Source: Candidatus Gastranaerophilales bacterium (lineage in GTDB: Bacteria; Cyanobacteriota; Vampirovibrionia; Gastranaerophilales; Gastranaerophilaceae). From it: a stretch of 34,345 nucleotides of DNA. The position numbers and the translations under genes were made by a program. The notes under the pieces were generated by a model, which was not told the origin of the DNA, ran no database searches, and saw nothing but the letters and a program-made list of their open reading frames with translations. Positions 10,822 through 29,693 of the stretch are shown here, piece by piece (positions within the stretch are counted from its first letter, which is position 1; every line of letters starts with the position of its first letter). The stretch is taken from contig CANQRT010000003.1 of NCBI GenBank assembly GCA_947626325.1, forward strand, positions 1 through 34,345. The letters are read 5' to 3'.

Positions 10822-11913
10822 ATGAGGGATATAGATACAATGCGGGAATATACACTTGAGGAAATATCTGAAATTGTAGGCGGTATTTTAACAAAGCTTG
10901 AAGATGTAAAAATATCCAGGTTAGGGCCTCCTTTATTAGCTGATGAAAATACTTTAGCCCTTGCTTTAAATGAAGATGAAATAGAAAATTTATCAAGAAC
11001 AAAAGCAAAAGCAGCATTAGTTCCAATAGGTGTTACATCGGAATTGATTTCCACTATTGAGGCAGAACGTCCTCGATTGGCTATGATGAAATTACTTCAT
11101 TTGTTTTATATGCCGCCTGATAGTACAATAGGTGTTCATCCTAGTGCAACAATACATCCCACTGCAAAACTGGGCGAGAATGTATCAATCGGGCCGAATG
11201 TAGTTATTTCTCGAAATGTATCAGTTGGGAAAAATACAAAAATACTTGCTAATACATACATCGGAAGAAGCGTTCAAATAGGGGAAAACTGCTTGTTTCA
11301 CGCTGGCTGTAATATAGGTGATAATGCAATAATAGGCAACAGAGTTATCCTCCAGCACGGTGTCAGCATTGCCGCTGACGGGTTTAGCTTTGTTACTGAA
11401 AACCCCAATAATGTTGAAAATGCTAGAGAAGAAGGTAAGGTTAAACAAGATAATTCCGACCAAAAAATATTTAAAATACCCTCTGTTGGCTCTGTTGTTA
11501 TCGAAGATGATGTTGAAATCGGAGCAAATACCTGTATTGATAAGGGAACTATAGAAAATACGGTAATCGGCGAGCAGACAAAAATAGATAATTTAGTTCA
11601 AATTGGTCATAATTGTAAAATCGGCAAAGGCTGTATGATTGTTTCTCAAGTTGGTATAGCAGGAAGCTGTAAGATAGGCGACCGTGTTGTTATAGCAGGA
11701 CAGGTTGGTATGGCTGATCATATAGAAATCGGCAGTGATTCTATTGTTATGGCAAAAGCAGGTATAACAAGAAGTTTCCCCGAAAAAACAATTCTTATCG
11801 GCGCACCTGCAATGCCCAGAAAAGATTTTCTTAAACACATGAAAACAATGAAAAAAGCTGAAGAAGTTTTAAATAAGTTTAAAGAATATGAGCATTTATT
11901 AAAGGATTTATAA
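10822..11913 (+). CDS. lpxD: UDP-3-O-acylglucosamine N-acyltransferase LpxD
   Basis: LpxD adds the second (N-linked) hydroxyacyl chain from acyl-ACP to UDP-3-O-acyl-glucosamine, the third step of lipid A synthesis, in the cytoplasm. The 363-aa protein has the LpxD-specific N-terminal uridine-binding domain (about 8-100), then a left-handed beta-helix of hexapeptide repeats (about 103-330: [19 protein letters not shown]). The catalytic histidine is in QIGHNCKIG at His263. A helical C-terminal extension supports trimer formation. AGAGGA precedes the ATG; Met7 is an alternative start. It is the first gene of a tight lpxD-lpxC-fabZ-lpxA operon, with lpxC starting one base after its stop. Confidence 0.96.
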
Positions 11914-11914
11914 T

Positions 11915-12721
11915 ATGGCAACAATAAAAAAAGAAGTCATATTAAGTTCAGTTGCTTTAATGACGGGGCTTGACTGTGAGGCTAAAGTTAGTCCAGCCGA
12001 TAAAAAGGGAATACGTTTCCATTTTAACGGAAAAATAGTTGAGGCTGATATAGATAATGTTCTATCTACAGAGCATTGTACGGTTATCGGTAACAGTGAA
12101 GTTAAAGTAATGCTTATAGAACACTTTATGGCAGCGTGTGCTATATGTAAAATAAATGCTCTTGATGTATATTTAAGCCATTATGAACTGCCGATACTGG
12201 ACGGAAGCTCAAAAAAATGGGTAGAAGCATTTAAAAATGCTGGAATAACAACCCCTGACGAAATAAAATGTACTGTGAAAGAGCCCCTAATGTATTTAAA
12301 CGGCAAAACGCATTTAATAGTATTGCCCTCAAATAGTTTAAATGTAACCTACGGAGTAAATTTTAAGCATAAGGATTTAAAAAATCGCTGGAGCCCTTTA
12401 GATATAAATAATATAGATGAAATAACAAACGCAAGGACTTTTGGATATTTATCTGAGCTTGAAATGTACCAAAAGGCAGGTTATGCGTTAGGTGCAAGCC
12501 TTGAAAATACGGTAGGCTTAACTCAAGACGGCTATACTACAGAATTAAATACGGAATATGAGCCTATAAAACATAAAATCCTTGACTTAATCGGTGATTT
12601 TTATCTTGCAGGCTGTAATATCCTTAATTTTAGAGGCGAAATAATCGTAAAAGAAGCGGGACATACCGTTCATACTATAGTTGCAAAAGAATTAAAAAAT
12701 AAGTTAGTAATGGAGGCATAA
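11915..12721 (+). CDS. lpxC: UDP-3-O-acyl-N-acetylglucosamine deacetylase LpxC
   Basis: LpxC is the zinc hydrolase that commits UDP-acyl-GlcNAc to lipid A. The expected catalytic residues are present: Glu69-His70 in MLIEHFMAAC, His220 and Asp224 in HKILDLIGD, and His250 in EAGH. LPILDGSS, ARTFGYL and ASLENTV are also in place. At 268 aa it is shorter than the usual 300 or so. The N-terminal GLHSG-like loop is replaced by GLDCEAK, so the N-domain is divergent although the active site is intact. Its stop overlaps the fabZ start (TAATG), pointing to translational coupling. Confidence 0.94.
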   Translation: MATIKKEVILSSVALMTGLDCEAKVSPADKKGIRFHFNGKIVEADIDNVLSTEHCTVIGNSEVKVMLIEHFMAACAICKINALDVYLSHYELPILDGSSKKWVEAFKNAGITTPDEIKCTVKEPLMYLNGKTHLIVLPSNSLNVTYGVNFKHKDLKNRWSPLDINNIDEITNARTFGYLSELEMYQKAGYALGASLENTVGLTQDGYTTELNTEYEPIKHKILDLIGDFYLAGCNILNFRGEIIVKEAGHTVHTIVAKELKNKLVMEA

Positions 12722-13173
12722 TGGCAGAAGAACAAATATTACAGTTTGATATTAAAGGAATAATGGATTTAATTCCGCACAGATACCCGTTTATATTGGT
12801 AGATAGAATAACGGAGTGTCTGCCTGGAAAGTATTGTAAAGGATATAAAAATTTAACTGTAAATGAAGCGTTTTTTACAGGACATTTCCCAGGCAATCCA
12901 GTAATGCCTGGAGTATTGCAATTGGAAGCAATGGCGCAGGTGTCGGCAGGTTGTTTGGTGCCGCTGCCTGAATATAAAGATAAATTGTTTTTATACGCAG
13001 GTATTGACGGGGTAAGATTTAGAAGACAAATTATCCCTGGCGATAAGTTTGAAATAGAATCCGAGCTTGTAAAAGTAAAAGGGCCGATAGCTAAAGTACA
13101 TTCAAAAGGCTTTGTAGATGGACATTTGGCAGTTGAAGCAGATTTAATGTTTTCAATGCTTGAAAAACAATAG
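12721..13173 (+). CDS. fabZ: 3-hydroxyacyl-ACP dehydratase FabZ
   Basis: FabZ dehydrates 3-hydroxyacyl-ACP in fatty acid elongation. It competes with LpxA and LpxD for the same hydroxyacyl-ACP, which explains its place in lpx operons. The 150-aa hot-dog protein has DLIPHRYPFILVDRI near the N-terminus, then GHFPGNPVMPGVLQLEAMAQ with the catalytic pair His55 and Glu69. The C-terminal half has the expected RFRRQIIPGDKFEIE. The ATG overlaps the lpxC stop by one base. Confidence 0.96.
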   Translation: MAEEQILQFDIKGIMDLIPHRYPFILVDRITECLPGKYCKGYKNLTVNEAFFTGHFPGNPVMPGVLQLEAMAQVSAGCLVPLPEYKDKLFLYAGIDGVRFRRQIIPGDKFEIESELVKVKGPIAKVHSKGFVDGHLAVEADLMFSMLEKQ

Positions 13174-13182
13174 GAGAGAATT

Positions 13183-13986
13183 ATGACAATACATAAAACG
13201 GCAATAATATCTGATAATGCAATAATACCTGCAAGCTGCGAAATAGGCCCGAATGTTATAATCGGCGATAACGTAGTTTTAGGTGAAAACGTAAAAATAA
13301 TTGCAAATGCTTATTTAGAAAATTGTGAAATCGGCGAGGGAACAACAATATATCCGTTTGCAAGTTTAGGAACGGCTCCGCAGGATTTAAGCTATAAAGG
13401 ACAAAAAACAAAAGCTGTAATAGGTAAAAATTGTATAATAAAAGAATATGTAACTATAAATAGAGCCGCAGGCGAAGACGGAGCAATAACAAAAGTTGGC
13501 GATAAATGTTTATTTATGGCATCAAGCCATGTTGCGCATAACTGCGTAGTTGAAGATGAGGCTATATTTGCAAACCTTGCAACTATCGGCGGGCATGTCC
13601 ACGTAGGCAAATGTGCATTCTTAGGCGGAATGAGCGTATATCACCAAAATATAAGAATTGGCGAATATGTAATAATATCAGGTTTTTCTGCAGCTAGAAT
13701 GGATATACCGCCTTTTGCAAAGGCTGCAAGCGCTCCTGCTGTATTGCATGGGCCTAACGTTGTAGGTCTTAAAAGACGTGGATTTTCCTCTGATGAAATT
13801 AAAAACATAAGAGAAGCTTACAGATTAATTGAAGCCAGAAAAACAACACTTTCTAATGTTGTTAAAGAACTTGAAGAAATGTTCCCTAACGATAAAAATA
13901 TATTAAGATTAACTGACTTCATAAAGACATCCAAAAGAGGGATTTATTTAGGCAGATTAAATGCTTTAAATAATGATGAGGTGTAA
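13183..13986 (+). CDS. lpxA: UDP-N-acetylglucosamine acyltransferase LpxA
   Basis: LpxA transfers a hydroxyacyl chain from ACP to the 3-OH of UDP-GlcNAc, the first lipid A step. The 267-aa protein is a beta-helix of hexapeptide repeats (about 1-190; IHKTAIISDNAIIPASCEIGPNVIIG) and a helical C-terminal domain. The catalytic histidine is His119 in SHVAHNCVVED. GTAPQDLSYKGQ is the classical LpxA signature. GGAGAG lies upstream of the ATG. It completes lpxD-lpxC-fabZ-lpxA; lpxB is not in the window. The M29 peptidase starts two bases after its stop. Confidence 0.96.
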   Translation: MTIHKTAIISDNAIIPASCEIGPNVIIGDNVVLGENVKIIANAYLENCEIGEGTTIYPFASLGTAPQDLSYKGQKTKAVIGKNCIIKEYVTINRAAGEDGAITKVGDKCLFMASSHVAHNCVVEDEAIFANLATIGGHVHVGKCAFLGGMSVYHQNIRIGEYVIISGFSAARMDIPPFAKAASAPAVLHGPNVVGLKRRGFSSDEIKNIREAYRLIEARKTTLSNVVKELEEMFPNDKNILRLTDFIKTSKRGIYLGRLNALNNDEV

Positions 13987-24888: not shown

Positions 24889-25131
24889 ATGGACAAAAAA
24901 AGAGCAAGAGAACTTAGAAATTCAATAGAAATGTGCAAAATGCGTTTGAATACAATAATGCCCCATTTAACAAAAGAAAAAACAGCCCTTAATGAATCTT
25001 TTAATAAATTATTGATAGAAAAAGCAATTTTAAAAGATGAACTAAAACAAAAAACAGACTCTTTCCTAATTAGAATGCTGAAAAAAATTAATCATAGAAA
25101 AAAAGAATTAATTTGTGATTATTTTAAATAA
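24889..25131 (+). CDS. Small basic coiled-coil protein of unknown function (80 aa)
   Basis: The protein is almost entirely charged helix (KKRARELRNSIEMCKMRLNTIM, then EKAILKDELKQKTDSF) and ends basic (KKINHRKKELICDYFK). No membrane or signal segment is present. GGATAG about seven bases upstream may serve as a ribosome binding site. It converges on fliR, the stops being one base apart. Size and charge resemble small flagellar-associated proteins such as FliJ-like or chaperone-like helices, but that is only a resemblance. Function unknown. Confidence 0.6.
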   Translation: MDKKRARELRNSIEMCKMRLNTIMPHLTKEKTALNESFNKLLIEKAILKDELKQKTDSFLIRMLKKINHRKKELICDYFK

Positions 25132-25132
25132 A

Positions 25133-25915
25133 TTAAAAAATATTAGAAAATGATAAAAAGAAATCACAAATAACATTAAATATAATCGGCATACCAACGA
25201 TTAAAATTGCCGCACCTAAACATGGCTTAAAAAGGAAACTCATCTGGAAAACGTTAACCTGCGGAGCTGTTTTTGAGATTATTCCTAAGATAATATCTTG
25301 TCCTAACGTTGCAATTAATACAGGAGCAGCTATTTGAAGTCCTATGTATAATACATTAGAGGTTATTTTAACAAGGTAATCCATATTAATAATTTCATCC
25401 ATAGGTATTGCATAAGCGTAAATCGGGAAAATTTCAAAGCTTCTGATGAATGCGTTAAAAGTCCAGTATGCACCGCCGATTTCGAGGAAAATAATCAAAC
25501 CCAAAAGGCTGAAAATTCTTCCCATAATAGATATTTGTGCCGATGTAGTAGGATCCATAATAGTAGCTGAAGATACACCCTGCTGCATATTAATCATATC
25601 TCCGCCGCTTTCTATTGCTTTTACAATGCAATTAACAATAAATCCTAAAATTGCGCCTGCCATATAATTTACAAGTATAGAATAAAGCATTGAAACACTG
25701 GCATCTGGAGCTTTTGGGTGTAAAAATATTGTAAGCATTACTGTAAAAATTAACGTAAAACCAATTTTAGCTATAACAGGTATTTCACTGCGCTGTAAAA
25801 AGGGAGTGCTTCTCATCAACCCTGCTACACGTGCAAAAATAGGAACTCCTGCAGTAAGTACATTGTTAATTTCGGGGAAATATTTAGGAAAGTCATTTAA
25901 TATGGTATCAAGCAT
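25133..25915 (-). CDS. fliR: Flagellar export gate protein FliR
   Basis: FliR is the single-copy core subunit of the FliPQR export gate in the inner membrane. The 260-aa length is typical. Hydrophobic helices are evident, with ARVAGLMRSTPFLQRSEIPVIAKIGFTLIF near the N-terminus, the conserved mid-region GDMINMQQGVSSATIMDP, and KTAPQVNVFQMSFLFKP towards the end. It is the last gene of the fliM/N-fliO-fliP-fliQ-fliR run, starting 10 bases after fliQ with AGGTAAGGA upstream. SctT of injectisomes is a homologue; FliO in the same operon favours the flagellar assignment. Confidence 0.93.
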   Translation of the reverse strand: MLDTILNDFPKYFPEINNVLTAGVPIFARVAGLMRSTPFLQRSEIPVIAKIGFTLIFTVMLTIFLHPKAPDASVSMLYSILVNYMAGAILGFIVNCIVKAIESGGDMINMQQGVSSATIMDPTTSAQISIMGRIFSLLGLIIFLEIGGAYWTFNAFIRSFEIFPIYAYAIPMDEIINMDYLVKITSNVLYIGLQIAAPVLIATLGQDIILGIISKTAPQVNVFQMSFLFKPCLGAAILIVGMPIIFNVICDFFLSFSNIF

Positions 25916-25925
25916 TATGTTTTCC

Positions 25926-26423
25926 TTACCTGTTTTTCTCCGAAATAACTTTTCTTTCGGCTAAATTAGGAGTCGGGACTTCATGTCCTTTGTTTCTCAT
26001 AACACTGAATCGATCTTTACCTGTATTGCCCATAGGTGCTGCCGCATTATTTAATATCTCTTTCATCGGAGTCATATCTTTTTTCATATCGGTTTTAATC
26101 TCGTCAATAAAAGGTTTAGTGTAGTTGTAATAATTTGGCGGGAGTACACATTCATCTGACTTAGGAATAACATCAAACGCAATAACTGCACCCTCATTAA
26201 ATAAATTTGTCAGCAGTTTTAAATACCCTGTACCAAGTAAAATTATTACTAAAAATACAGCAAAAATTTTAGGAGCGGCGGCAATGGTCTGTTCTTGAAC
26301 TTGTGTTACCGCTTGCAAAATACCTACAATAAGACCTATTGCCGCCGCAGTAAGTACGCAAGGCATTGCTATCATAAGCATTACTATAAGTCCTTTTGTA
26401 AAATATTCCATTAAAATTTCCAT
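25926..26423 (-). CDS. fliQ: Flagellar export gate protein FliQ with a long C-terminal extension
   Basis: The first 85-90 residues are a normal FliQ: two hydrophobic hairpin helices with AAIGLIVGILQAVTQVQEQTIAAAPKIFAVFLVIILLG. FliQ proteins are normally 86-90 aa, but this one runs to 165. The extra 75 residues are polar, with PPNYYNYTKPFIDEIKTDMKKDM and a basic end (NLAERKVISEKNR). The extension is in the same frame with no sign of frameshift, and fliR follows directly, so it appears genuine. In solved FliPQR complexes both FliQ termini lie on the side away from the cytoplasmic loop; where this tail would sit is inference. AAGGAA precedes the ATG. Confidence 0.92.
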   Translation of the reverse strand: MEILMEYFTKGLIVMLMIAMPCVLTAAAIGLIVGILQAVTQVQEQTIAAAPKIFAVFLVIILLGTGYLKLLTNLFNEGAVIAFDVIPKSDECVLPPNYYNYTKPFIDEIKTDMKKDMTPMKEILNNAAAPMGNTGKDRFSVMRNKGHEVPTPNLAERKVISEKNR

Positions 26424-26433
26424 GTTTTATTCC

Positions 26434-27075
26434 TTAATTAAAGCTGCCCACAAGTCCGTTAACAATTAATGACCAGCCGTCAACTGCTATAAATATCAGC
26501 AGTTTAAACGGCAGAGATATAATTGTGGGCGACAGCATAAACATACCTAAAGCCAAAAGTACATTTGCCACAACTAAATCTAAGACTATAAACGGTATAA
26601 ATATAATAAAACTTATTTCAAAAGCAGTTTTTAATTCGCTCAAAATGTAAGCAGGAGCTACTTCCCAGATAGTTAAATCTTCAACCGAAGCAGGTGCTTC
26701 TTTTCTTGCGAGTTGAACAAAAAATGCCAAATCCTTTTCTCTTGTTTGTTTAAGCATAAATTCTTTTAACGGTTTAGAACCCTCACTAATGGCTAAAACC
26801 ATAGAACCCGATTCTTGATAAGGTTTAGAGCCTACTTCATACATTTGCTGAAAAACAGGGCCCATTGTGTAAAATGTTAATATTATTGATAATCCTACAA
26901 GGACTATTGCAGGCGGGATTTGTTGAGCTCCGAGTGCCTGTTTTAAAAACCCGAATACTATAGCATATCTTAAAAAACTTGTCATGCAAACAAACATAAA
27001 TGGCAGCATTGAGAACATTGCCATTACTGCTAATAATTGTATTACGGGACTTAAATCTTTTAATATTGCATCCAT
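26434..27075 (-). CDS. fliP: Flagellar export gate protein FliP
   Basis: FliP forms the pentameric pore of the export gate. The family signatures are clear: TSFLRYAIVFGFLKQALGAQQIPPAIVLVGLSIILTF, then MVLAISEGSKPLKEFM, and the C-terminal LALGMFMLSPTIISLPFKLLIFIAVDGWSLIV. At 213 aa it is shorter than many FliP proteins (about 245) because it has no cleavable N-terminal signal peptide, in this respect like SctR. It starts one base after the fliO stop, with GAGGT as ribosome binding site inside the end of fliO. Confidence 0.94.
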   Translation of the reverse strand: MDAILKDLSPVIQLLAVMAMFSMLPFMFVCMTSFLRYAIVFGFLKQALGAQQIPPAIVLVGLSIILTFYTMGPVFQQMYEVGSKPYQESGSMVLAISEGSKPLKEFMLKQTREKDLAFFVQLARKEAPASVEDLTIWEVAPAYILSELKTAFEISFIIFIPFIVLDLVVANVLLALGMFMLSPTIISLPFKLLIFIAVDGWSLIVNGLVGSFN

Positions 27076-27076
27076 T

Positions 27077-27406
27077 TTAACCTCGATTTATCTTAAATTT
27101 TTCTTTTAATGTCTCTGAAATATTTATTGGTTTTTGAGGCTCTGTGGTATCAATATTTTCAGCCTCAAGTTTTGCAAGCAGGGTTGTAGATGTATTGTCG
27201 CCTGCTACTAAAAATCTTTCATATCCTGCTTTTATTATATAAACGCTTTTTGTAGGCGATAATTTTATCATGTTTTCAACTTTTAAATAGGTATTGTTTA
27301 AGTTATTTGGCATACTTACGGACTTTTTATAAATGTACAATACTATTACAATGAACCCAATCATTGCAAATGTATATGTAGCAAAATTTATAATATATCC
27401 GTTCAT
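27077..27406 (-). CDS. fliO: FliO-like flagellar export accessory protein
   Basis: A 109-aa bitopic protein: one hydrophobic helix (about 8-26, YTFAMIGFIVIVLYIY), then a soluble domain with MIKLSPTKSVYIIKAGYERFLVAGDN, the FliO/FliZ pattern of a conserved S-L-Y-V-V-like strand and a LVG-like turn. FliO stabilises FliP assembly and is found in flagellar systems but not injectisomes, so it is key evidence that this operon is flagellar. AAGGGA lies five bases before the ATG, just after the FliM/FliN-like gene. Confidence 0.85.
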   Translation of the reverse strand: MNGYIINFATYTFAMIGFIVIVLYIYKKSVSMPNNLNNTYLKVENMIKLSPTKSVYIIKAGYERFLVAGDNTSTTLLAKLEAENIDTTEPQKPINISETLKEKFKINRG

Positions 27407-27415
27407 TTTATCCCT

Positions 27416-27868
27416 TTATATACTTTCGTCTTCTATTTCAAAATCACTGTAGTCAAAGTTTTCATCTTCGTTTGCGTGTGCTTGCGGTTTTTGAGTTGGA
27501 GCAGACGCTTTAGGTGCAGCTGTTTTTACTGCGGGTTTTGCTTGTGCAGTTTTTTGTTCAGGTTGTTGAGCTTCTGTTTTTACCGCCTTTTCTGTTTTTT
27601 TGACAGGCGCTTCTTTTGTCTTTTTTACGTTATCTATTCTAACTCCGTATCTGTCATTTAAGATTACAAGCTCGCCTGTTGCAACTAGTTGATTTTCTAC
27701 ACGCAGTTTGATTTTATTGTCGTAAATAGAGCCTACATCTATAACAAGCCCCTCTGATATCTGCTTTAATTCGCCTAGCGTCATTTTTACATTATCAAAT
27801 TCCGCAGTTATATCAACAAGTATTGAATCCCACATGTTTTGGGATTTTACTGTTGTTTCTTCTTCCAT
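27416..27868 (-). CDS. Internal FliN-like product from the same frame (150 aa)
   Basis: Inside the FliM/FliN-like gene, GGAGGT (27875-27880) lies six bases before the in-frame ATG at 27868. This is the strongest Shine-Dalgarno match in the operon. It is placed exactly between SpoA-1 and SpoA-2. The product MEEETTVKSQNMWDSILVDI... would hold SpoA-2 and the tail and match ordinary FliN in size. SctQ genes of several injectisomes make such a C-terminal protein by internal initiation; here it is predicted, not shown. Confidence 0.75.
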   Translation of the reverse strand: MEEETTVKSQNMWDSILVDITAEFDNVKMTLGELKQISEGLVIDVGSIYDNKIKLRVENQLVATGELVILNDRYGVRIDNVKKTKEAPVKKTEKAVKTEAQQPEQKTAQAKPAVKTAAPKASAPTQKPQAHANEDENFDYSDFEIEDESI

Positions 27869-28642
27869 ATCATTACCTCCGTTTTTATCAAGGTTTATAA
27901 TTATTGACGGATTTGGATTAACCTTAAAATTTACTGTTTTGCTGCTCCACGCTGCCGTCATATAGTTTATATCACTGTCTTCAAGCAGAATTATGTCACC
28001 TGCTTCCATTGATTTTATTTCGTTTAACGCTATTTTTGATTTTCCTGCTTCGATTTTTATTGTGGTGGTTGTATCTTTAAAATCTGTTATGTTGAATTTT
28101 TCTTTTATTTCGCTTGTTTTTGGTTCGTTAATTATACAACTAGGTATTTTTATTATTATTTTTCCTATATGATTTTTTTTGTATCTAATAAAAAATGTTA
28201 AATATAATTCCTTGTTATTTTGAATTTTCGCTTTATTTACAACTGTTTTATTTATTTTATCCTCTATATTTGAATATATAAATGAAGTTAATGATTGAAT
28301 AAGCCTTGCTTCTATTTCAGTCAAATTTTTAAGTTCAAATTCTTTGTCATCTTTACCTAATGCACTGTTTAAAAACTCATCAACAACCTCTGAAGATATC
28401 TTTATATTTATGTTAAAGTCATTTCCAACAGGTATATTGCTTACAAAATATTCATCTCCGTATGATAATATACTGCCATTTTCAGAAACACCAATAAATC
28501 TTAACTCATAATCTTTTTCAAAAAATTTTTTTATTGCTTTTTGAGTATTTAAATAAAAATCTTCATAAAATAGAGAATAGTTATTGAACAAACTATTTTG
28601 AATATCCGCATTAATTTCATTGTCTGTTTTTAAAGCTGTCAT
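27416..28642 (-). CDS. FliM/FliN (SctQ-type) C-ring protein with two SpoA domains
   Basis: A 408-aa predicted switch or sorting-platform protein, first in the fli operon. Residues about 80-150 resemble the FliM middle domain (VVDEFLNSALGKDDKEFELKNLTEIEARLI). SpoA-1 is at about 190-252 (KIEAGKSKIALNEIKSMEAGDIILLED). SpoA-2 is at about 270-345 (ITAEFDNVKMTLGELKQISEGLVIDVG, VATGELVILNDRYGVRI), which is FliN-like. The tail (about 346-408) is rich in Lys, Ala, Pro and Gln and ends acidic (YSDFEIEDESI). FliM normally has one SpoA domain and an N-terminal CheY-binding EIDALL-like peptide, which is absent here; SctQ of injectisomes has two SpoA domains. An internal start at Met259 is strongly supported. 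Confidence 0.88.
   Translation of the reverse strand: MTALKTDNEINADIQNSLFNNYSLFYEDFYLNTQKAIKKFFEKDYELRFIGVSENGSILSYGDEYFVSNIPVGNDFNINIKISSEVVDEFLNSALGKDDKEFELKNLTEIEARLIQSLTSFIYSNIEDKINKTVVNKAKIQNNKELYLTFFIRYKKNHIGKIIIKIPSCIINEPKTSEIKEKFNITDFKDTTTTIKIEAGKSKIALNEIKSMEAGDIILLEDSDINYMTAAWSSKTVNFKVNPNPSIIINLDKNGGNDMEEETTVKSQNMWDSILVDITAEFDNVKMTLGELKQISEGLVIDVGSIYDNKIKLRVENQLVATGELVILNDRYGVRIDNVKKTKEAPVKKTEKAVKTEAQQPEQKTAQAKPAVKTAAPKASAPTQKPQAHANEDENFDYSDFEIEDESI
27875..27880 (-). promoter_or_regulatory. Internal Shine-Dalgarno site for the FliN-like product
   Basis: GGAGGT on the minus strand, within codons GGA GGT encoding Gly-Gly of a linker, six bases before the ATG at 27868. An out-of-frame ATG (AATGAT) lies between and would compete only weakly because of its short spacing. 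Confidence 0.75.
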
Positions 28643-28757: not shown

Positions 28758-28784
28758 AACAAATTTAGCAGATTTTTGTATACT
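28756..28784 (+). promoter_or_regulatory. Promoter of the DNA methyltransferase gene
   Basis: ATAACA (28756-28761), a 17-base spacer and TATACT (28779-28784). Transcription near 28791 would exclude the TTG start at 28776 given by the ORF track and supports the ATG at 28821. Confidence 0.6.
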
Positions 28785-28820
28785 GAACACTTGAATATAG
28801 TAATTATTTGGGGCATATGT

Positions 28821-29693
28821 ATGGCAAAAGTCAATACACAAAGAATAAAACCGCAAGAGCAAAGACCTGATTTAAAAATCGCACCAAAGGTCAAAACAAA
28901 GCCCTATAGCGATATAGACTTAAATAATTGGAAAGACTATAGCCATATAAAAACTGATACATGGTGGGAATTTGCTCAGCGTGATAATACTCATGGGCAT
29001 AGTAATGAATACCACGGAAATTATATACCTCAAATAGCACAACAATTGTATGAAAGATTTACTAAAAAAGGTGATATAGTTCTGGATTTATTTTTAGGCT
29101 CTGGTACAAGCGCTATTGAAGCAATAAATATGAAAAGAAGATGTATCGGGGTTGAATTAAAGCCTGAACAGACAGAAATTGTGCGCTCTAAATTCAGCGA
29201 AAAAGAACTTGTAACCGATGTTAATTTAATTTGTGCTGACAGCGCAGCAAAATCAACAAAAGAAAAAATTCAGGCAAGACTCGATGTTATGAGGAGCGAA
29301 AAAGCGCAGTTCCTTATTCTTCATCCGCCTTATGACGATATTATAAAATTCTCCGACAGAAAAGAGGATTTATCGAACTGCGGTTCTACGGAAAAATTTT
29401 ATGAACTGTTTAAGCAGGCAGCACAAAACGGCTATGATATGCTTGAAAAAGGCAGATTTGCAGCTTTAATTATAGGTGATAAATACTCAAATGGCGAGAT
29501 TGTACCTTTAGGCGCTGACTGTGCAGCCAAAATGCGTGAAGTCGGGTTTAAAATGAAAGCTGTTATTGTTAAAAATATGGAAGGTAATGAACGGGCGAAA
29601 GGCAAAACTGCTAATTTATGGCGCTATCGTGCATTAAACGGCGGTTTCTATATTTTCAAACACGAGTATATTTATGTATTCCAAAAAGTTTAG
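28821..29693 (+). CDS. Orphan site-specific DNA methyltransferase (N4/N6 amino type)
   Basis: The 290-aa enzyme likely methylates an exocyclic amino group of adenine or cytosine in DNA using S-adenosylmethionine. The SAM-binding motif I is LDLFLGSGTSAIEAI (residues 88-102). The catalytic motif IV is HPPYDD (168-173), with His in place of the usual Asp, Asn or Ser; this may be normal for its subfamily. THGHSNEYHGNYIPQIA before motif I and WRYRALNGGFYIFKHEYIYVF at the end are further family hallmarks. The start at 28821 is set by the promoter and avoids the TTG of the ORF track. No restriction gene or specificity subunit is nearby. It overlaps the next gene by 20 bases. Confidence 0.85.
   Translation: MAKVNTQRIKPQEQRPDLKIAPKVKTKPYSDIDLNNWKDYSHIKTDTWWEFAQRDNTHGHSNEYHGNYIPQIAQQLYERFTKKGDIVLDLFLGSGTSAIEAINMKRRCIGVELKPEQTEIVRSKFSEKELVTDVNLICADSAAKSTKEKIQARLDVMRSEKAQFLILHPPYDDIIKFSDRKEDLSNCGSTEKFYELFKQAAQNGYDMLEKGRFAALIIGDKYSNGEIVPLGADCAAKMREVGFKMKAVIVKNMEGNERAKGKTANLWRYRALNGGFYIFKHEYIYVFQKV

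Follow-up and report, generated by a model that had tools for sequence, protein, structure and literature searches.

A double-SpoA gene with a conserved internal start in Gastranaerophilales probably belongs to a flagellar-type type III secretion system without a role in motility

The window, as we call the whole stretch of 34,345 nucleotides analysed here, is contig C3 of a draft Gastranaerophilales genome (1.59 Mb, 88% complete). It carries a gene for a protein of 408 amino acids that is followed directly by fliO, fliP, fliQ and fliR, as identified by Pfam. A reading of the sequence without database searches had taken this locus for a flagellar operon headed by an SctQ-style gene with two SpoA domains and an internal FliN start. 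The locus raises two questions: whether one gene makes two proteins, and whether the machine that it serves is a flagellum. Its features are the following.

27416..28642, minus strand: SctQ-like double-SpoA gene, 408 aa (Pfam, NCBIfam, AlphaFold/Foldseek)
28118..28585, minus strand: FliM middle/CheC-like domain, about residues 20-175 (AlphaFold and Foldseek)
27977..28081, minus strand: SpoA1 as covered by PF01052 (residues 188-222; 4.5e-4, sub-threshold)
27875..27880, minus strand: internal Shine-Dalgarno sequence GGAGGT, 6 nt before the ATG
27866..27868, minus strand: internal in-frame ATG (Met259), within the stretch linking SpoA1 to SpoA2
27416..27868, minus strand: predicted FliN-like short product, 150 aa
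27626..27826, minus strand: SpoA2, residues 273-339 (PF01052, 7.2e-15)
27419..27460, minus strand: conserved acidic/aromatic C-terminal tail NFDYSDFEIEDESI (alignment of homologues)
27077..27406, minus strand: fliO (PF04347, 4.6e-7, above cut-off)
26434..27075, minus strand: fliP (PF00813, 3.6e-69)
25926..26423, minus strand: fliQ with a C-terminal extension, 165 aa (PF01313, 2e-19)
25133..25915, minus strand: fliR (PF01311, 8.7e-49)

Re-reading of the sequence confirmed the 408-residue frame, with its ATG start and its stop, as first described. Residues 273-339 gave a strong match to the Pfam family FliMN_C (SpoA), with an E-value of 1.5e-19 for the protein and 7.2e-15 in the genome search; the match of residues 188-222 was weak (4.5e-4, 21 bits) and under the curated cut-off. 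Two NCBIfam SctQ models cover both SpoA regions (NF006018, residues 193-337; NF005956, residues 105-338), each under its cut-off, and the first SpoA domain probably extends to about residue 250, a region that these models span. FliN, SctQ and FliM models all matched the protein, none at the curated cut-off, with fliN (6e-18) and SctQ (6e-17) nearly tied. When a profile of nine orthologues was compared with the PDB, chains of FliN, a FliM::FliN fusion and HrcQ2 were matched across the second SpoA region. The AlphaFold model of the protein, based on a shallow alignment (mean pLDDT 51.6), is confident only for residues ∼25-170, where most of the FliM middle/CheC-like domain reaches a pLDDT of about 70-87. 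Foldseek aligned this region with FliM of the Salmonella C-ring (7.5e-8) and with crystal structures of the FliM-middle/CheC fold (4.9e-5 and weaker). With nine sequences from the genus as input, AlphaFold left both SpoA regions mostly below a pLDDT of 50; the SpoA fold was therefore assessed by profiles alone, and the model was used for the FliM middle only.

Collectively, the Pfam, NCBIfam, PDB profile and AlphaFold matches lead us to read the protein as a FliM middle domain, SpoA1, a linker, SpoA2, a variable linker and a conserved tail. The proposed FliM-like middle with two SpoA domains thus holds, the first SpoA being sub-threshold and the second strong, and the SctQ-style layout gains support from the SctQ models that align over both. 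The tail is nearly invariant in the genus and DFDYSDFEI(E/D)-like in most other genera, and it follows a highly variable linker; it would be carried by both products and resembles a docking motif. A further PF01052 match on contig C64 (E 0.25) was rejected as a SpoA gene because the locus encodes, by inspection, a protein of the outer-membrane-efflux type.

The GGAGGT sequence six bases upstream of an in-frame ATG between the SpoA domains was found as reported, and the 150-residue part downstream of this ATG is by itself recognised by PF01052 (1.5e-14) and by the fliN model TIGR02480 (7.3e-15). Our alignment held 53 orthologues, of which 32 belong to the window's genus and 21 to further families of the order; we counted as a start any in-frame ATG, GTG or TTG with a properly spaced Shine-Dalgarno match of at least 4 nt. 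Such a start was present in 52 of the 53 linkers, compared with 64 of 611 other in-frame starts (a background of 10%); with matches of at least 5 nt the counts were 29 of 53 and 13 of 611, and although kinship among the 53 sequences inflates these numbers, the pattern recurs across several families. The sole linker without a qualifying start (L031) has GGGGGC. The internal methionine is invariant in all 32 aligned sequences of the genus; in other genera the start is an ATG or a GTG with a Shine-Dalgarno sequence, and its position shifts. The residues encoded by the Shine-Dalgarno site vary between genera (GG, GD, GE, KED, EED), and the nucleotides remain Shine-Dalgarno-like. Within the genus, 28 of 29 sequences use GGA for the first glycine of the site, a codon that accounts for 39% of the glycines in these genes overall.

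These signals could in principle be idle, reflecting a glycine-rich linker or surviving from an ancient fusion of fliM with fliN: sequences resembling ribosome-binding sites can arise within genes, as the measured background illustrates, and genes that had fused would retain one here. We consider this quite unlikely, however, since the site is kept in homologues of several families while ATG and GTG are exchanged and both its position and the encoded amino acids change, and since neither the low background nor the bias towards GGA fits an idle sequence. The comparison of homologues argues that the window gene very probably makes two proteins, the full-length one and a FliN-like protein of 150 residues from the internal start, as the sequence-only reading had proposed. 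A separate fliM and fliN in the genome, named there as evidence that would count against this proposal, were searched for and none were found.

The suggestion that the locus is the operon of a working flagellum was not supported. A search of the window's own genome returned no flagellin (PF00669), even at an E-value of 10. FliM (PF02154) was found in none of 35 genomes of the genus and in 21 of 22 from other families of the order, and the corresponding counts were 0/35 and 20/22 for MotB (PF13677) and 2/35 and 21/22 for flagellin. The two flagellin exceptions in the genus, G003 and G016, are both doubtful, the latter being 9% contaminated. The flagellin-like gene of G003 (G003:C32:21421-21831; 348 aa, 9e-32) stands alone in a genome otherwise lacking FliM and MotB. 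The genus is thus without FliM and MotB and essentially without flagellin, and the flagellum of its relatives, as described below, is encoded by a different set of genes; on account of the missing components and of this separate flagellum, we reject the reading as an ordinary flagellar operon.

What the genome does contain is an extensive set of flagellar-type genes dispersed over several contigs, which we denote system B. Contig C28 encodes two FlgF/G-like proteins, FlgB, FlgC, an SLT transglycosylase, FliE, FliF including its C-terminal domain, a protein at the position of fliG, FliH and FlhA; in G026, FliI comes next after this set. The rod proteins FlgB, FlgC and FliE are therefore all present in the genome together with FliO. 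Contig C69 encodes FlhB and an adjoining sigma-70-family factor nearest to FliA/WhiG, and contig C29 a FliJ-like protein, a FliK-like protein and a 278-residue FlgE/F/G-like short hook protein, the FliJ and FliK family matches having been obtained on the G045 and G039 orthologues. FlhA scored 672 bits with the FlhA model TIGR01398 and 588 bits with hrcV, in both cases under the cut-off. The FliA/WhiG-like sigma gene (C69, L147:4316-6080) also lies beside flhB in G026, G034, G045 and G039, and the factor may control system B or its substrates. On contig C90 (L127:413-1876), a free-standing protein of 487 residues carries the FlhA cytoplasmic domain at its C-terminus and has no membrane part; such a protein is found in about every relative and is retained in the genus and the order together with the second system. 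The protein at the fliG position (C28, L126:8579-9568) has 329 residues and a weak MgtE_N match (0.007), and is duplicated in G045 (L132). Pfam, NCBIfam, the PDB and hhalign against the relatives' FliG gave no FliG similarity for it, leaving its identification as a FliG homologue unsupported.

The window itself holds three further features near or apart from the locus. An ORF for 80 residues, basic and coiled-coil-like, faces fliR (24889-25131, plus strand), and homologous ORFs occupy this place in L035, L037, L040 and L041. A gene with DNA-methyltransferase-like motifs (LHPPYDD; 28776-29693, plus strand) diverges from the double-SpoA gene and is kept at this position in several genomes of the genus. 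Genes reading, by inspection, as lpxD, lpxC, fabZ and lpxA (10822-13986, plus strand) point to an outer membrane with lipid A.

Among the 35 genomes of the genus, FlhA of system B was found in 35, FliF in 34, FlhB in 32 and the double-SpoA gene in 33, and nearly every genome has one copy each of a full FlhA (∼710 bits), FliF (∼110-125 bits), FlhB and the double-SpoA gene. Most genomes from other families of the order (G035-G056) add a higher-scoring FlhA (∼860-890 bits) and a second FliF, and most also encode FliM adjoining a single-SpoA FliY, flagellins and MotB besides the double-SpoA gene. We read both sets in the near-complete genome G045, in which the flagellum is encoded at L135, L136 and L137 and system B at L132, L134 and L149. 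The proteins of the window's genome are consistently closer to system B of G045 than to its flagellum, with identities of 75 and 37% for FlhA, 79 and 43% for FliP, 69 and 35% for FlhB, 50 and 26% for FliF, and 58 and 30% for FlgC, respectively. The window locus is therefore part of a separate system. FliO, which had been taken as a flagellum-only marker, accordingly signals flagellar-type ancestry but not a flagellum, because the locus coexists with a separate, complete flagellum in relatives.

The published reading of such genes is that of a degenerating flagellum, whose filament, motor and switch are lost and whose remaining genes are leftovers; Di Rienzi 2013 and Soo 2014 saw in incomplete flagellar sets a sign of loss or of genome reduction still under way. 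Our data make this very improbable. A complete flagellum coexists with orthologues of exactly these genes in flagellated relatives, and finding both sets within one genome largely refutes the remnant hypothesis. Moreover, no stop interrupts the double-SpoA frames matched in the genus, and FlhA, FliP, FliR and FliF are 83-95% identical between species. Finally, system B persists after repeated loss of the flagellum: judged by FlhA score, G047 has system B only, as do many genera of the window's own family among 382 genomes sampled across the class. Genes that outlast the flagellum in this way are not those of a flagellum in decay.

In a tree of FlhA sequences, which is unrooted and has long branches and few outgroups, the second-system FlhAs of Gastranaerophilales form a monophyletic group with their counterparts from two further families of the class (100/100), the sampled flagellar FlhAs, including the class's own, fall on one side of a 94/88 branch, and system B sits between them and the injectisome SctV. 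The injectisome references in this tree come from Rhizobiales and Desulfovibrionales plasmids. A tree uniting both FlhA types of the class was not rejected (AU p=0.09), nor, on these sequences, is the idea that system B arose as a duplicate of the flagellum that the class itself has. The window gene may, as first suggested, be an intermediate or a convergent form of C-ring organisation. Under either origin the split between the two FlhA types is, by this comparison, old within the class. We put forward only tentatively the stronger view that system B is a third, old type III lineage, neither flagellum nor injectisome, which would keep the rod and a short hook-like structure together with an injectisome-style dual-product sorting protein.

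Like SctQ/Spa33 of the non-flagellar systems (PMC4832279), the window gene combines two SpoA domains in one gene with an internal start for a C-terminal SpoA product. Both products of Shigella Spa33 are needed for secretion and form a 1:2 complex, and Spa33/SctQ has been described as corresponding to a fusion of FliM and FliN with additional free FliN (PMC4832279). The window gene thus has the two-SpoA SctQ layout with internal start that marks injectisomes, its SpoA1 being weak and its start identified by comparison; an injectisome should, however, lack FlgB, FlgC and FliE, all three of which are present in system B. Unlike SctQ/Spa33, the window gene neighbours fliO, and the genome around it also encodes FliE, rod and hook-like proteins; its product ends in the conserved tail that follows the variable linker, and it scores under the cut-off of the NCBIfam SctQ models. 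With the bacterial flagellum, system B shares FlhA, FlhB, FliO-R, FliF with its C-terminal domain, FliE, FlgB/C/F/G-like proteins, FliH/I/J, a FliK-like protein and the SLT transglycosylase; it differs in the absence of FliM, MotB, flagellin and a recognisable FliG, in the double-SpoA gene, and in an FlhA clade distinct from the flagellar FlhA of the same genomes. The 'Myxo' NF-T3SS of Myxococcales (PMC3459982), first annotated as a relic and then argued to be functional because it is conserved, likewise is a conserved type III set without motility genes, but it lacks FlgBCDEK and FliEG, whereas system B keeps FliE, FlgB, FlgC, FlgF/G-like proteins and a short hook-like protein. Buchnera basal bodies (PMC8109811) resemble system B in that flagellar basal body and export genes are retained in a small genome; system B, by contrast, forms a lineage of its own, which relatives have side by side with a true flagellum.

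Taken together, the best reading, and one that we regard as probable, is that system B is a flagellar-type type III secretion system not serving motility, with an SctQ-like dual-product gene for its ring or sorting platform. It would be dispersed over several genome loci, of which the window is one, and vertically conserved in Gastranaerophilales. Its gene content, its coexistence with a true flagellum, its retention after flagellum loss and the conserved internal start are directly computed; we infer that it assembles, secretes and uses both products. In such a machine, FlhA, FlhB and FliPQR would form the export gate inside the FliF ring, energised by FliH/I/J. A rod of FliE, FlgB, FlgC and the two FlgF/G-like proteins would pass through the peptidoglycan, opened for it by the SLT transglycosylase, and would end in the short hook-like protein, with its length possibly set by the FliK-like protein and FlhB. 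The cytoplasmic ring or sorting platform would be built from the window gene, as in Spa33/SctQ, with a full-length protein resembling a FliM-FliN fusion and a free FliN-like subunit. Lacking flagellin, MotB, FliM and a recognisable FliG, system B should not rotate. The same genes might instead encode another flagellum, an alternative one whose filament protein has escaped recognition and which other stators may turn. Genes for rod, hook-like and FliK-like proteins and for a FliA/WhiG-like sigma factor are indeed present, and the short hook-like and FliK-like proteins could serve such a filament; we nevertheless find this unlikely, as the genomes with system B only have no MotB, FliM or flagellin, and FliG is undetectable.

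The non-motility secretion system also offers another view of earlier work, in which the whole set has so far been taken as an incomplete flagellum and loss of flagella deduced. Di Rienzi 2013 (PMC3787301) took as ongoing reduction the lack of filament, cap, junction and L/P rings in MEL.A1, the one related genome for which cap, junction and L/P rings are reported to be missing, and based a flagellar phylogeny on 13 genes common to all four genomes (two flgG, flgC, fliF, fliH, two flhA, fliI, flgE, fliP, Q, R and flhB). The matching names suggest that these 13 genes are system B, and conclusions on ancestral flagellation should therefore be rechecked. Utami 2018 likewise described partial flagellar sets. 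Abby and Rocha 2012, who also describe the Myxococcales system once called a relic, recognised flagella by FlgB, FlgC and FliE, so that a system of this kind would by design be sorted as a flagellum. In the open-access papers that we searched, we found none that describes a type III secretion system in the Gastranaerophilales group.

The host of system B, Gastranaerophilales, are non-photosynthetic cyanobacteria of the gut. The dual-start ring gene renders the evolution from C-ring to sorting platform testable, and a third-lineage system B would, if real, be a living counterpart of the step by which the flagellum was exapted to the injectisome, widespread in gut cyanobacteria. Should system B prove to secrete proteins, an export machine has gone unrecognised in a class of uncultured gut bacteria.
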